From positions 1-50,054 of the forward strand of contig DSAP01000106.1 in the NCBI GenBank assembly GCA_011046415.1: a DNA stretch of 50,054 nucleotides, in the 5' to 3' direction. Shown piece by piece: positions 8,067 to 43,653 of this stretch. Positions within the stretch are counted from its first letter, which is position 1; each line of letters starts with the position of its first letter. This DNA comes from a bacterium. GTDB taxonomy: Bacteria > Zhuqueibacterota > QNDG01 > JABMRT01. The notes under the pieces are model-generated. The model saw only the letters and a program-made list of their open reading frames with translations. It was not told the origin of the DNA and did not search any database. A program made the position numbers and the translations under genes.

Positions 8067-8691
8067 GTGTCATCAATCCGATACGTGTCTCCCCCGCCTT
8101 TACCCGGTCGCCTTCTTTGATCATGAGTTGGACGCTTCCCGGCAATTCCAGTTCCACCCGTGATCCCAGCTTGATCATGCCGAATACGTCTCCACGGCGG
8201 ACCTCCTGCCCCTCTTCGAGCCGGCAGACGATGCGCCGCGCGATCATGCCCGCCACCTGAGTGACCGTGACTTCACCGAACGCGGTTTCGATGACGATCC
8301 GCATCCGTTCGTTCTCGCTTCCCGCCCGGTCGGAGAATGCCGGACGGAATTGTCCCGGGACATGACGAATCGACACGATCCGGCCGTCGCAGGGTATGCG
8401 GTTCACATGCACATCCAGCAAAGAAAGAAAAATGGCGACCCGGGTCAGCGAATCGGCCTGCTGGACGGCCGTGATCCGTCCGTCCGCGGGCGCGAGGATG
8501 TGACCGCCGTCCGGGATGATCCGTTCCGGGTTGCGGACGAAAAACAGCAGGAACAGGATCAGCGCACACGACAAACCCGCTGCCGCGCGCCCCGTCTTAC
8601 GATGGCGGCGTGACAGGATGAGGCCGAATATCAGAAACGCGGCGCACAGGATGAGCGGCGTCTGGATTTCACCGGTCAAAACTCCCTCCAT
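8053..8691 (-). CDS. psd: Phosphatidylserine decarboxylase proenzyme (short type)
   Basis: The protein is 212 residues, the compact PSD-A-like class. It converts phosphatidylserine to phosphatidylethanolamine. Two N-terminal hydrophobic helices (about 11-27 and 37-51) anchor it. Recognisable segments are VRNPERIIP, ILAPADGRI, FLSLLDVHVNRIP and, near the C-terminus, KLGSRVELELP. The Ser of GSR is the expected self-cleavage site that yields the pyruvoyl prosthetic group. It precedes and overlaps pssA. Order and overlap make a two-gene phospholipid unit. Confidence 0.9.
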   Translation of the reverse strand: MEGVLTGEIQTPLILCAAFLIFGLILSRRHRKTGRAAAGLSCALILFLLFFVRNPERIIPDGGHILAPADGRITAVQQADSLTRVAIFLSLLDVHVNRIPCDGRIVSIRHVPGQFRPAFSDRAGSENERMRIVIETAFGEVTVTQVAGMIARRIVCRLEEGQEVRRGDVFGMIKLGSRVELELPGSVQLMIKEGDRVKAGETRIGLMTHGNR

Positions 8692-38695: not shown

Positions 38696-39130
38696 GATAA
38701 CCCCCTTAAGAAATGGATTCAAACCGGTCACTCCCGTGATTCTTCAGGCCGGTGATCCGACATCATGCGGCCGTTTTGTGCCGGAGGAACATGCATGATC
38801 ACGGAACCCTCAAAATGCAGCAATTCACATACCGTTTCGGCCCAATCATCCGATTCACTCTTTTTTCAGGATTTACAAGGCTTTCTGCGATCGGAATCGA
38901 ACCGCCTGCCCGGGATTCAACGGCTCAATCGGAAAATTCCCGCCACCCGGGTATGAAATATTTACCGGTATTCCTAAGATTGCTCAATTCATCTGCCCCC
39001 CCAAAAAACGGTGGGATAGAATCCCACCCTGCTTTTTATCCGGGAGGATGCTTAACTCCCGGACCGGTCAATCCGCAGCCTCATAATCTGCGGCGGCGCA
39101 CTCACCACGGGCAGAGCGTCTGGCCACCGT
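38696..39130. other. Gene-free stretch
   Basis: I see no gene here except the terminator at 39003-39037. It should also carry the promoter of the Ig-repeat gene, which I cannot locate. A TTCGATT-like loop near 38890 looks tRNA-like, but no cloverleaf can be drawn around it. Confidence 0.5.
39003..39037. terminator. Bidirectional-looking terminator
   Basis: GGTGGGAT (39010-39017), loop AGA and ATCCCACC (39021-39028). On the minus strand the stem is followed by GTTTTTTGG, ending the glutamate dehydrogenase/PPDK_N operon. On the plus strand it is followed by CTGCTTTTT. Confidence 0.8.
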
Positions 39131-41899
39131 TTATCCGGTCTTTCTCAAATAACCCACGGCTTTTTCGACTTCTCCATTCATCAGGATACTCAGGACCATG
39201 CCGTTCGCAGTCCCGGGGACATCGATCACATGGATGGTATCAGATAACCTGGCATATTGCGGCAATATCTCGGGAAGCATGTTTGGGGATTCCAACAAAA
39301 ACCTCTCATTGAAAATCACCGACTCCTCGTCCGGGTAGAGCGGAAGATACCGAATGGACGACTCGACCATATCCTGAAAAAAGTGGGTCCCGAAAGACAG
39401 CTCCGGCACATAATCGCCCTTCTTGTTGGCGATTTCGATCAGCATCGCCGTATTGTTGATGTCCGAATATGTGACACTGACCCCGAGTTTGATATCGCCT
39501 CTGCTGCCCCATCGGCCGGGTCCGATCAGGATAAACTGCCGCCTGGGAAGAATCATATTGAGCCGGCCTACGGCCTGTCCCACGGCCTGATATTCTGAAA
39601 GGTCGGTCATCCGGCAGTAGGCTTTCGGATCCACATAAACGATCGTCGAAATGTCCGGAACCTGACCGTTAGAAATATACCGGTTGGCAGAAAAGATGAT
39701 ATTCTCTTCAGGAATATCATCCGGTATCGAAGCAGGCTTAAACGCCTGCGAGTGACTCTGGGGACGGCATTGAAGCAAATAGAGATTCGTCCCGTCATGG
39801 GCAAATTCGATATCCACCGGTGACCCGATTTCTTTTTCAAGAATCGCCAGGATGGTTTCGATCTGGCTGATGAACCGGGTATCCCTGACGAGGCCTTCGA
39901 AGGTGACAATCAGGTTGTCTTTGGCAAAATTCAGCTGGAGAGTGTTCGTGGGTGTGTGCAGATGATTCTCTTCACAGACGGACAGCAGATAATGGATTCC
40001 GGGAATATCATTTCCGAATTCTTTCAGCATCCGGGAGATTTCCAGGGTTTCAAAACGATTTCCGGACAGGTTGATCACGTCGATCATCTTGGGCGAATAA
40101 TGCAGAATTTGATCCGGGGTTACATTCACACGGAGTTCCGGATTGCCCGGCGCGATCAGTACAGGATAATCATTGGACACACGATCCACGGCCCGTGTAC
40201 CCAATCCCGGTACCAGCCGGACCAGGCCGTCTTCACGACGGATCCGGGAAGACCAGCGGAATTCATTGCAGCTGAACGCCACACCGGCGAAGGTCGGCAG
40301 AAAATAATCACCGATCTGTGTCCCGACAACCTCCTGGATCATGATGCCCATTTCTTCATGGAAATCGAGCAGGCCGCGCTCCGTCCGGTACAGGATGGCG
40401 TCCGGAGAAAACGTGGAAGCATACACCTCCGCGATCGCATCCATCAGGGCTTCGAGCCTTTCCTCCTTGCTGCCCTGATTCGCGAGGAACAGGCTCTTGT
40501 ACTTCCCTGAGAAAGCGGCGCCGAGCCGGTCTTCAAGGAGGCTCGAACTCCGGACGATGATCGGACGATTACCGAAATCATCGATCACGCTGGATAATCC
40601 TTTCACGATTTCCGGGGCGAAGTGGGAATTCTTGAAAATCTGGACGATATTTGGATACTCGAAAGCGATCTCATCGATTTCCTTGTATTTTTGATCGTTC
40701 ATTTCCTCATAATTGTTGTCATGCATGAAATTGATGAGACTGTCCGAAGTGATGAACCACGTTTTCGGCACCCTCAGATCGCCGAACTGTCCGGTATATT
40801 CAGGGGATTTCGCCAGAATCCGGCTGGCCAGGATCAGGCCCGCGGTCTTCCCTCCGAGTTTTCCCCGGCTGTTCGCGGGATAAATGATCCGGTTGACAAG
40901 CTGATAATAATCACGGATCCCGATATGCTTTTTCGCAATTTTAATGAACTCAAGCTGTTCTGATAAAAAACGCCGTATCAGAGAGACGCGCAACCCTTTC
41001 TCGATGGAAGCGGACAGTTCAGCTCCTTCGGCCTCGATATACTGAAACCGGGTGATGGCGTGGATGATCTCATTCAGCGACGAACCCGGATTGTCGATGG
41101 TTTTGATGAAAAAGCGGAGTTTGTCCTGCTGTAGCCACCGGTGAATAAATGAGAGAATTTGTTTCCCGCTCAGATTCCGCGAGGCGATCCGGAACACTTC
41201 TTCACTCATGTTCAGGATGTCATCACTGGTCTGCTTCAGCGTCGGACGATTGATTTCAGTGCGGGTTCCGAGGCCGTCTTTTCCCTTTTCGGTTGCGGGC
41301 TGATCCATGAGCCGGTTGGCTTCATCGACACCCCGCCAGCAGAGATGCTGCAGCATTTTCTGTGATATATAGAGATAGGCGTGTTTGTCGGTCCGCCGCA
41401 ACATATTCACGATGACATGCCATTCTTCCGTACCCGTTTTTGAAAATTCTTCCTTGGCCACTTCCCACTCTTCATAAATCTGTTTCATCGTCTTGTGAAT
41501 AATCGTATAACTGATCCGGTCGGCGATGGTGTTGATCAGCTTGATTTCTTCCTTGAGAAATAATCCCCAGTTCACGGAAGGCACTTCCTTGATATAAAAC
41601 ACCGAAATCCGGCCGACGTTTCTCCCCTGCACTTTAATGTCTGCGCACAATTCCCGGGACGAGGCCTGAAAATCCTCGGCTTGATAGATTTTATTGTTAT
41701 AAACCACCCGGGCCCTGCATACATCCGGAAACTGAAATCCCGAAGGCAATACGCGGGCGACCTTGATCAAGAGGTCTTCCAGGGGTATCACACTGTCGAG
41801 AAGCAGTTCTTCGATCTGATAGAGACAGGTCAGTTCTTTCGTCCTCTCCTGAAGGTTGTTCATCAGCTTGAGTATCTGTTTACTTTTCTGCTGTTTCAC
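39131..41899 (-). CDS. GAF-like plus PEP/pyruvate-binding (PPDK_N) protein, no swivel domain
   Basis: The protein has 922 residues. The first 140 resemble a GAF sensor (ELTCLYQIEELLLDS opening, as in GAF-containing kinases). A helical linker spans about 150-320. The ATP-grasp PPDK_N region follows: RGKLGGKTAGLILA, VPKTWFITSDSL, PIIVRSSSLLEDRLGAAFSGKYKS, IMIQEVVG and LLQCRPQS. A C-terminal part shared with the next protein upstream has GPGRWGSRGDIKLGV and THFFQDMVESSIRYLPLY. The phosphohistidine (TSCR/TCHA) and PEP-binding TIM barrel domains of PPDK/PEP synthase are absent, so it cannot carry out the full reaction alone. It starts in an ATGA overlap with its paralogue. Confidence 0.85.
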   Translation of the reverse strand: MKQQKSKQILKLMNNLQERTKELTCLYQIEELLLDSVIPLEDLLIKVARVLPSGFQFPDVCRARVVYNNKIYQAEDFQASSRELCADIKVQGRNVGRISVFYIKEVPSVNWGLFLKEEIKLINTIADRISYTIIHKTMKQIYEEWEVAKEEFSKTGTEEWHVIVNMLRRTDKHAYLYISQKMLQHLCWRGVDEANRLMDQPATEKGKDGLGTRTEINRPTLKQTSDDILNMSEEVFRIASRNLSGKQILSFIHRWLQQDKLRFFIKTIDNPGSSLNEIIHAITRFQYIEAEGAELSASIEKGLRVSLIRRFLSEQLEFIKIAKKHIGIRDYYQLVNRIIYPANSRGKLGGKTAGLILASRILAKSPEYTGQFGDLRVPKTWFITSDSLINFMHDNNYEEMNDQKYKEIDEIAFEYPNIVQIFKNSHFAPEIVKGLSSVIDDFGNRPIIVRSSSLLEDRLGAAFSGKYKSLFLANQGSKEERLEALMDAIAEVYASTFSPDAILYRTERGLLDFHEEMGIMIQEVVGTQIGDYFLPTFAGVAFSCNEFRWSSRIRREDGLVRLVPGLGTRAVDRVSNDYPVLIAPGNPELRVNVTPDQILHYSPKMIDVINLSGNRFETLEISRMLKEFGNDIPGIHYLLSVCEENHLHTPTNTLQLNFAKDNLIVTFEGLVRDTRFISQIETILAILEKEIGSPVDIEFAHDGTNLYLLQCRPQSHSQAFKPASIPDDIPEENIIFSANRYISNGQVPDISTIVYVDPKAYCRMTDLSEYQAVGQAVGRLNMILPRRQFILIGPGRWGSRGDIKLGVSVTYSDINNTAMLIEIANKKGDYVPELSFGTHFFQDMVESSIRYLPLYPDEESVIFNERFLLESPNMLPEILPQYARLSDTIHVIDVPGTANGMVLSILMNGEVEKAVGYLRKTG

Positions 41900-43653
41900 G
41901 TGAGAATCACCCCCATTTTTTTACCCGCATCCAGGATGACCCGGATGCACGATCCGGATTGCACATGCCTCACAAACCGTGTTTCCGAAACAGGGCGCTG
42001 TTTGTCCAGCCAGTCCCAGTCGATCCGGTACGGATCGGTGTGCTTCAGTGAAAAATATCCGATTCCCAGGCTGGAGATATTATGAAAAAAATGATATCCC
42101 TGGCTCAAATCGATCTCTTTTTCAGGCAGGGTCGCTTCGACAATGACCCGGGCGCCGGAAATCTGCCCCCAGTTCACCGGAATGCCCAGCCAGGCCTCTG
42201 TGGAACCCCATCTTCCGAAACCGATCAGCAGATAGCGTCTCCCTGCTTTGACGAGCCGGGAATTGACAATTTCGATTTCTTCTGCGATCTCTCTGGAATA
42301 TCGGATATCGAAATTTTCCGGGCGGATATAGACTATATCCTTCAGGGAATCGATCACGCCATAGCCGAGGACGCGTTCCGAAGCCAGCAGCACATTCTCT
42401 CCCGAAAGATCCTTCTTTTGGATAACCGTGGATTCCCGGTTCAAGACGATGGGCCTGACCTGCAGAAGGCTGAAGGCCGCGTGCAATTCGGGTCTGCGTT
42501 CAAAATTTACGGCAAATTCGATCTCGACTTTTTCCCCGACGGCTTCCTCGCATTGTTTGACGACGGATGAAAGCACGTCGTTGAAGGGGATGACAGGCGT
42601 CTGGCGAAGGGGCGAAAAAGTAAGGATCCGGGGACCGGGAGTGCCTGTTCCGATCTTGATCATGTCGTTTTCGGCATCATACGTGGAGGCGATGAGGGAT
42701 AAGGTGTTGTCGTATTCCGCATCCGTAAGGCTGCATTGGATCAGATATTCGGTTTCCCTGATCGGATCAAACGCCGGGGGTTTTCCCATGTTCACCGCCC
42801 AGAAATACTTCTGGGTCTGCTTCAGCAAATCTCCGGTTGTGCTGAACGGCGGATCCGTGCCGGGGGAAGCCGGCGAATACGACCAGACACGATTTCCGTC
42901 CATAATGGTCTTTCCCAGTCCGAGCGCAAGATTGACGATTCCGTCTTCCACCGCGGCATGACCGAACGGAAAGAAATTGAAGGAACGCGCGACTCCGGAC
43001 ACGTTCGGATAAAACCGGTCTCCGTGCCGCTGCCCTGCGATTTCCTGTATGATCACCGCCATCTTTTCGTTCTCGGATTTCTGATTCACGGATGCCCTGT
43101 AGGCTTTTGCGTTCCGGAAGAAGGTCGAAGCCCAGACGAATTTGACGGCTTCGACCAGCCTGTTGAAACGACTGTCCGGATCCGGTTGATTGTTGGGAAT
43201 CATCTTGGTTTCATACACGCCGGCAAAGGGCGAATGCGCCTGATCTTCCAAAAGGCTCGATGAGCGGACAGCAAGCGGACTGTGGATTATCGAGTTGAAC
43301 GCCCTCAGATCACCGACCAGGTCTGATGGCAGTTCCGCCTTCTGAAACCGGTGGGCGATGCGGTCGTCACCCCGGCCGGACAGGGCGATCTCATACAGAT
43401 CATTGTTTTTAAGGAACAGATCGAAAAAATGGGTGGTGATCACCAGCAATTTGGGCACATACACGGTAATGGACGGAAACGGATGATCGCGGAAAAACGG
43501 AATGATGCTCTCCTGGATCAGCGCAAGGCCCTGCGCCTTGCCCCCCCGTTCTCCGTCTCCGAGATAGGTAAAGGTTTCCGTTCCACCGAACGTGTCGCGG
43601 TTGAAACGGAAAATGTTTTCATGGACGGACAGGTTCTTCCTCTCCGGCATCAA
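41896..43653 (-). CDS. Second PEP/pyruvate-binding (PPDK_N) protein, no swivel domain
   Basis: A 585-residue paralogue of the downstream protein without the GAF region. Shared elements in the same order are LGDGERGGKAQGLALIQ, VPKLLVITTHFF, PLAVRSSSLLEDQAHSPFAGVYETK, AVIIQEIAG, LLQVRPIV, IGFGRWGSTEAWLGIPV and YHFFHNISS. The ATP-grasp basic and acidic residues are kept, so it probably still binds ATP. No phosphohistidine motif is seen. It lies 49 bp after glutamate dehydrogenase and overlaps the larger paralogue by 4 bp, implying the two are made in equal amounts and may form a complex. Confidence 0.83.
   Translation of the reverse strand: MMPERKNLSVHENIFRFNRDTFGGTETFTYLGDGERGGKAQGLALIQESIIPFFRDHPFPSITVYVPKLLVITTHFFDLFLKNNDLYEIALSGRGDDRIAHRFQKAELPSDLVGDLRAFNSIIHSPLAVRSSSLLEDQAHSPFAGVYETKMIPNNQPDPDSRFNRLVEAVKFVWASTFFRNAKAYRASVNQKSENEKMAVIIQEIAGQRHGDRFYPNVSGVARSFNFFPFGHAAVEDGIVNLALGLGKTIMDGNRVWSYSPASPGTDPPFSTTGDLLKQTQKYFWAVNMGKPPAFDPIRETEYLIQCSLTDAEYDNTLSLIASTYDAENDMIKIGTGTPGPRILTFSPLRQTPVIPFNDVLSSVVKQCEEAVGEKVEIEFAVNFERRPELHAAFSLLQVRPIVLNRESTVIQKKDLSGENVLLASERVLGYGVIDSLKDIVYIRPENFDIRYSREIAEEIEIVNSRLVKAGRRYLLIGFGRWGSTEAWLGIPVNWGQISGARVIVEATLPEKEIDLSQGYHFFHNISSLGIGYFSLKHTDPYRIDWDWLDKQRPVSETRFVRHVQSGSCIRVILDAGKKMGVILT

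Follow-up and report, generated by a model that had tools for sequence, protein, structure and literature searches.

The window, that is, the whole 50,054-nucleotide stretch of DNA analysed here, carries on its minus strand a glutamate dehydrogenase (GDH) gene followed by two genes for paralogous proteins, called S and B below (Table 1). The gap between GDH and S is 49 bp, and S and B overlap by 4 bp; these distances, as well as the protein lengths of 585 and 922 residues, had been given correctly in the earlier note. S may start at a TTG, which yields the 585 aa product, or at the ATG one codon further on (584 aa), while B starts with GTG. From their arrangement in the sequence, the three genes are predicted to form a tight operon, the end of which is marked by a strong intrinsic terminator. 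S and B share 27% identity over 537 aa.

Table 1. Genes, protein domains, and terminator of the GDH–S–B locus in the window.
Feature	Position	Strand	Remarks
Glutamate dehydrogenase (GDH), 429 aa	43703..44992	-	Pfam PF00208 2.6e-66, PF02812 1.1e-52
S protein, 585 aa	41896..43653	-	ATP-grasp core and C-terminal GRWGS/HFF domain
S PPDK_N ATP-grasp domain	42412..43545	-	K39, R130, E379, Q398, R400
S C-terminal domain, uncharacterised	41899..42396	-	GRWGS 480-484, E506, SQGYH521FF
B protein, 922 aa	39131..41899	-	N-terminal input region, ATP-grasp core, C-terminal GRWGS/HFF domain
B N-terminal region	40910..41899	-	Residues ~1-330
B PPDK_N ATP-grasp domain	39707..40861	-	
B C-terminal domain, uncharacterised	39134..39697	-	GRWGS 795-799, GTH839FF
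Intrinsic terminator downstream of B	39010..39028	-	GGTGGGATTCTATCCCACC then GTTTTTT

ATP-grasp core and C-terminal domain

Pfam searches showed that both paralogues contain a PPDK_N domain (E-values 2.5e-61 and 1.6e-34). The residues with which PPDK acts on ATP are invariant or nearly so in the family made up of S, B, and a third type of protein, R (described below), where they lie in the motifs GGK, VRSS, ED, EIEF, and LQxR. The invariant ATP-site motifs in a 38-sequence alignment are GGK39, R130SS, E136D, E379, and Q398xR400 (S numbering). The PDB holds PPDK mutants K22A and R337A, and the equivalent sites in S, B, and R were matched by motif. S was modelled with AlphaFold (pLDDT 87), and a Foldseek search of the model matched structures of rifampin phosphotransferase and HpeI (5hv1, the rifampin phosphotransferase, E 2.4e-14; 9goj, 9.5e-11), PEP synthase, and PPDK. 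On the basis of sequence, S and B have a complete PPDK-type ATP-grasp site, and the invariance of its residues argues for real ATP use. The earlier note had also stated that the proteins keep this core with neither swivel nor PEP barrel, and indeed no PEP-utilizers (PF00391) or PEP-barrel domain was detected by Pfam in S or B, both of which end right after their C-terminal domain. Likewise, the curated cut-offs for PPDK and PEP synthase were missed by far, the NCBIfam PEP synthase model giving 59.7 bits against a cut-off of 598. PPDK and PEP synthase are like S and B in their PPDK_N domain with its catalytic Lys, Arg, Glu, Gln, and Arg, but they also have a swivel and a TIM-barrel PEP domain, to neither of which S or B has a match.

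The C-terminal domain of S and B (~165-190 aa) follows PPDK_N. The earlier note had assigned the RSS...ED, GRWGS, and HFF motifs alike to the ATP-grasp core; the first does lie in the ATP site, whereas the other two belong to this separate domain. Modelled alone, the domain of S reached a pLDDT of 95.8. Its sequence matched no Pfam family and no PDB chain, and a Foldseek search of the model against the PDB gave nothing significant (best E 0.11, TM < 0.3). A phosphate-loop-like GxGRWGS and His/Glu residues are conserved in it. The architecture that defines the family, an ATP-grasp core followed by a GRWGS...SxGxHFF domain, was found in 152 non-redundant members, and the HFF histidine is kept in 151 of them (SxGxHF in 150, SQASHF in one, and SFGTYF in one). 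This near-invariant histidine is a candidate phospho-acceptor, as judged from sequence conservation. The sole member with Tyr in its place is a B (L045:1390-4251) of genome G003, in which no S or R match was found.

A diverged swivel was also considered for this domain, as the histidine of SxGxHFF begins a helix like that of TSHAA in PPDK. This idea was not supported by an HMM-HMM comparison with the PPDK/EI swivel profile (hhalign Prob 0.2) or by any Foldseek match. A loose full-length HMM alignment extends into the swivel and places the YHFF segment over the GGMTSH site of PPDK, with a Prob of only 6.7.

Input modules of the three architectures

The sequences sort the family into three architectures that appear to differ in their input modules. 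S consists of the core only and has no input domain; B has ~330 aa ahead of the core; and R (1010 aa, L007:4544-7576), which is 40% identical to S, combines two receiver-like stretches with the core. In R, the Pfam receiver match covers the first stretch only (residues 72-133), where the acceptor Asp is absent by reading, while the second stretch was recognised by motif reading (IED, SDINFP, FSS, and LKG at 186-312).

Residues ~6-150 of B show homology to the input part at the N-terminus of histidine kinases found in relatives. In two relatives, a histidine kinase with such a B-like N-terminus is encoded upstream of GDH–S–B, and in one of the two, G006, genes for a sigma-54 activator and a receiver accompany it. 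The larger protein had been credited with a GAF-like sensor, but no Pfam GAF match was obtained, even at E<=1, in the N-terminus of the window's B or its relatives, and the region is of the kinase type instead. Many B relatives carry a fused C-terminal nucleotidyltransferase of the Pol-beta type (PF01909), which is absent from the window's B and was found nowhere else in its genome. As a part of the core, this domain was ruled out by its absence in G000, G001, G003, G014, G022, G026, G138, and G140; on sequence grounds it is taken to be accessory. In G022 (L187:6777-9125), B is frameshifted or stopped before the C-terminal domain, and its second piece has an in-frame TGA.

Genomic linkage to glutamate dehydrogenase

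For an unbiased test of co-occurrence, 69 genomes of the phylum were compared. The results showed that full-length B and the B-linked GDH clade (70-100% identity) are present in exactly the same 15 of the 69 genomes (p 1.8e-15 in a naive hypergeometric test that ignores kinship), and that GDH abuts S or B in 14/14 of the co-occurrence genomes where contigs allow. The GDH–B unit is patchy, being found in only some genomes within families f12, f13, f16, and f20, which suggests that the unit moves together. Among 59 related genomes, every S–B pair is abutted by GDH, and where S is missing, B is abutted. S is absent in several genomes (G003, G014, G022, G026, G138, and G140). From these comparisons, B appears to accompany this GDH clade constantly, and S to be optional. 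The GDH-coupled, ATP-dependent system suspected in the earlier note finds strong support in the genomic data: the note had named a lack of conservation of the gdh linkage as a refutation, and the linkage proved to be conserved across genomes. S and B are not an obligate tandem pair, with S missing in several genomes.

The linkage was also examined in public loci (n = 80) from archaea and bacteria of more than ten phyla. GDH was located within 3 kb of S in 21 of 24 cases, the other three S genes lying at contig ends. For R cores, GDH was within 3 kb in 38/69, while 17/69 were at contig ends and 12/69 had full flanks without GDH; in the 59 related genomes, GDH was within about 3 kb in 23 of the 28 R loci. 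The family is, by its sequences, larger than the pair first noticed and includes the receiver-type R beside other GDHs. In the window's own genome, R lies between two other GDH genes (L007, G000:C29), the second of which (L007:7745-8991) has an apparent frameshift in the assembly at ~8330-8455 with two overlapping open frames. In a Methanomassiliicoccales archaeon (L124), a single cluster holds GDH, S, B with the nucleotidyltransferase, a second GDH, and R, an arrangement that points to transfer of these genes between archaea and bacteria.

In a GDH tree, the GDHs linked to B or S form their own clade with 100% local support, to which none of the phylum's unlinked GDHs belongs. Most linked rows of this tree were included for lying by S or B, and the 69-genome co-occurrence is therefore the unbiased test. 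His116 is invariant in the linked GDHs (29/29), where unlinked GDHs have Thr, Lys, or Arg, and other clade-specific residues are a one-residue insertion Trp245, Trp294, and Asn371. These residues are possible interface or target sites, as far as the alignment tells.

Not all of the family is linked to GDH, since about six B relatives of ~770 aa, without the full N-terminal region, lie away from it (L188-L192). Neighbours in L190-L192, read from their N-termini only, resemble AccD, a PorX-like response regulator, and TsaB/TsaE. A distant family member of 872 aa (35% identical; L194:5427-8042, G008:C72), with an N-terminal domain of a different kind, is found in a cluster with the order amt, PII, glnA, SPFH, the PPDK_N + GRWGS/HFF protein itself, glnA, gltB, and a gltD-like gene.

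R was found in 48 of the 51 Bacteroides-group genomes sampled, with GDH within 5 kb in 19/25; its place is between gdhA and gdhB or next to them. In G065, a close relative of B. thetaiotaomicron, the order is malic enzyme, gdhA, catalase, R (opposite strand), gdhB, and peptidase. BT_1971 of B. thetaiotaomicron was rejected as R, as it is a catalase (PMC12596196, PMC4595636) and the catalase of G065 sits exactly between gdhA and R. From the gene order in G065, we infer that the R of B. thetaiotaomicron is BT_1972. In E. coli, its gdhA is reportedly transcribed yet inactive unless a downstream segment of ~3 kb is supplied. R is ~3 kb long and placed downstream of gdhA as such a factor would be, the catalase being the other gene in reach. 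According to the title of the 1996 paper, the activity of B. thetaiotaomicron GdhA is dependent on one or more unidentified trans-acting genes located downstream of gdhA (Baggio & Morrison 1996); as far as a title allows the comparison, the factor is encoded near gdhA and R occupies the same neighbourhood in close Bacteroides. By its position, R could be this factor, although the identity is not proven because the catalase lies between gdhA and R. Our literature search on the GDH link of S, B, and R returned nothing beyond this title.

Possible mechanism and alternative readings

ATP-grasp domains related to that of PPDK phosphorylate a histidine. The nearest characterised relative of S, B, and R is VadK (Rv1127c) of M. 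tuberculosis, which is derived from PPDK and has no PEP domain; it phosphorylates itself on His422 and interacts with enzymes of the methylcitrate cycle (PMC13400623). VadK and the S/B/R proteins are alike in their PPDK origin, the retained ATP-grasp domain, and the absence of a PEP/pyruvate domain, and S, B, and R may, like VadK, be tied to the control of metabolic enzymes. In contrast, the His422 of VadK lies in a swivel phosphohistidine domain, whereas S, B, and R end in a different C-terminal domain and are set apart by their input modules and the GDH link. HpeHI and rifampin phosphotransferase share the ATP-grasp fold with S (Foldseek), but neither their swivel with its catalytic His nor their domain for a small-molecule substrate was detected in S, B, or R. 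GlnE and GlnD control nitrogen enzymes by nucleotidyltransferase activity, and the nucleotidyltransferase fused to many B homologues also stands beside a nitrogen enzyme; the window's B differs in having none.

We lean towards the reading that S, B, and R are dedicated ATP-using post-translational regulators or activators of GDH, which we think somewhat probable. It is supported by the co-occurrence of B with its GDH clade, the adjacency of S, B, and R to GDH across phyla, the separate clade of linked GDHs together with the presence of R beside other GDH types, and the location of the 35%-identical member with amt, PII, two glnA, and gltB/gltD-type genes. The title from 1996, the precedent of VadK, and the invariant ATP-site residues argue in the same direction. 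On the contrary, the 12/69 R loci and the ~770 aa B relatives that are not near GDH weaken it. In such a system, B, helped by S, would bind the GDH of its own operon, and a response of its input domain would lead to the use of ATP for switching GDH activity. By analogy with PPDK and VadK, the switching would most likely be a phosphotransfer, with the C-terminal histidine of S, B, and R as a possible phosphate carrier or GDH itself as the direct target. Where B is fused to a nucleotidyltransferase, as in many relatives, that domain may place or adjust a covalent modification. The favoured reading is also weakened by the failure of fold and profile searches to find a phosphohistidine domain and by the Tyr in the B of L045. 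In the fullest version, a new system found across phyla would covalently switch GDH on and off through PPDK-derived ATP-grasp proteins that have swappable inputs and, at the C-terminus, a new phosphocarrier-like domain (acceptor His521/His839). Such a system would be the GDH counterpart of the control of glutamine synthetase by GlnE and would include the GdhA factor of 1996; this version is tentative, and we hold it to be doubtful.

The genomic evidence for the GDH link would apply equally if the ATP-grasp domain only bound ATP, ADP, or AMP, making these proteins a non-catalytic energy sensor that serves as an allosteric subunit or assembly factor of GDH with no phosphotransfer, and the absence of a detectable phospho-acceptor domain (hhalign, Foldseek) fits this. 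Nevertheless, the PPDK catalytic set, including the phosphate-near Glu and the Gln/Arg, is invariant or nearly so in 48 diverse members, a conservation that exceeds the needs of simple nucleotide sensing and makes this explanation rather unlikely. Ligation or phosphorylation of carboxylates is common among ATP-grasp enzymes, and S, B, and R might accordingly be ligases or dikinases whose substrate is glutamate, 2-oxoglutarate, or a derivative; their C-terminal domain, which has the conserved phosphate-loop-like GxGRWGS and His/Glu residues, would then be the substrate domain. We consider this quite improbable, since a regulatory role is suggested by the receiver in R, by the kinase-like part of B, and by the existence of three types with different wiring next to different GDHs, and the distant member is accompanied by PII, amt, glnA, and gltBD with no biosynthetic path. 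It is very improbable that S and B supply the ATP-grasp part of a PEP-synthase-like dikinase divided in two, as in HpeHI, where ATP-grasp and swivel are on separate proteins and HpeI is the ATP-grasp domain alone (PMC12167813): S does match HpeI in Foldseek, but both S and B carry an extra C-terminal domain without counterpart there, and the separate swivel/PEP partner that the earlier note had asked about was found neither nearby nor elsewhere in the window's genome, where the only proteins with PF00391 are PPDK and a PTS enzyme I-like protein of ~640 aa, neither of them encoded on the window's contig.

The favoured reading, a dedicated ATP-using regulation of GDH, concerns an enzyme that joins carbon and nitrogen metabolism. 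To our knowledge, no general post-translational switch of such a type has been described for bacterial GDH. Because the family adjoins GDHs across many phyla and in archaea, it is the leading candidate for a hidden GDH control system. R is a concrete candidate for the trans-acting GDH factor that has been outstanding since 1996.
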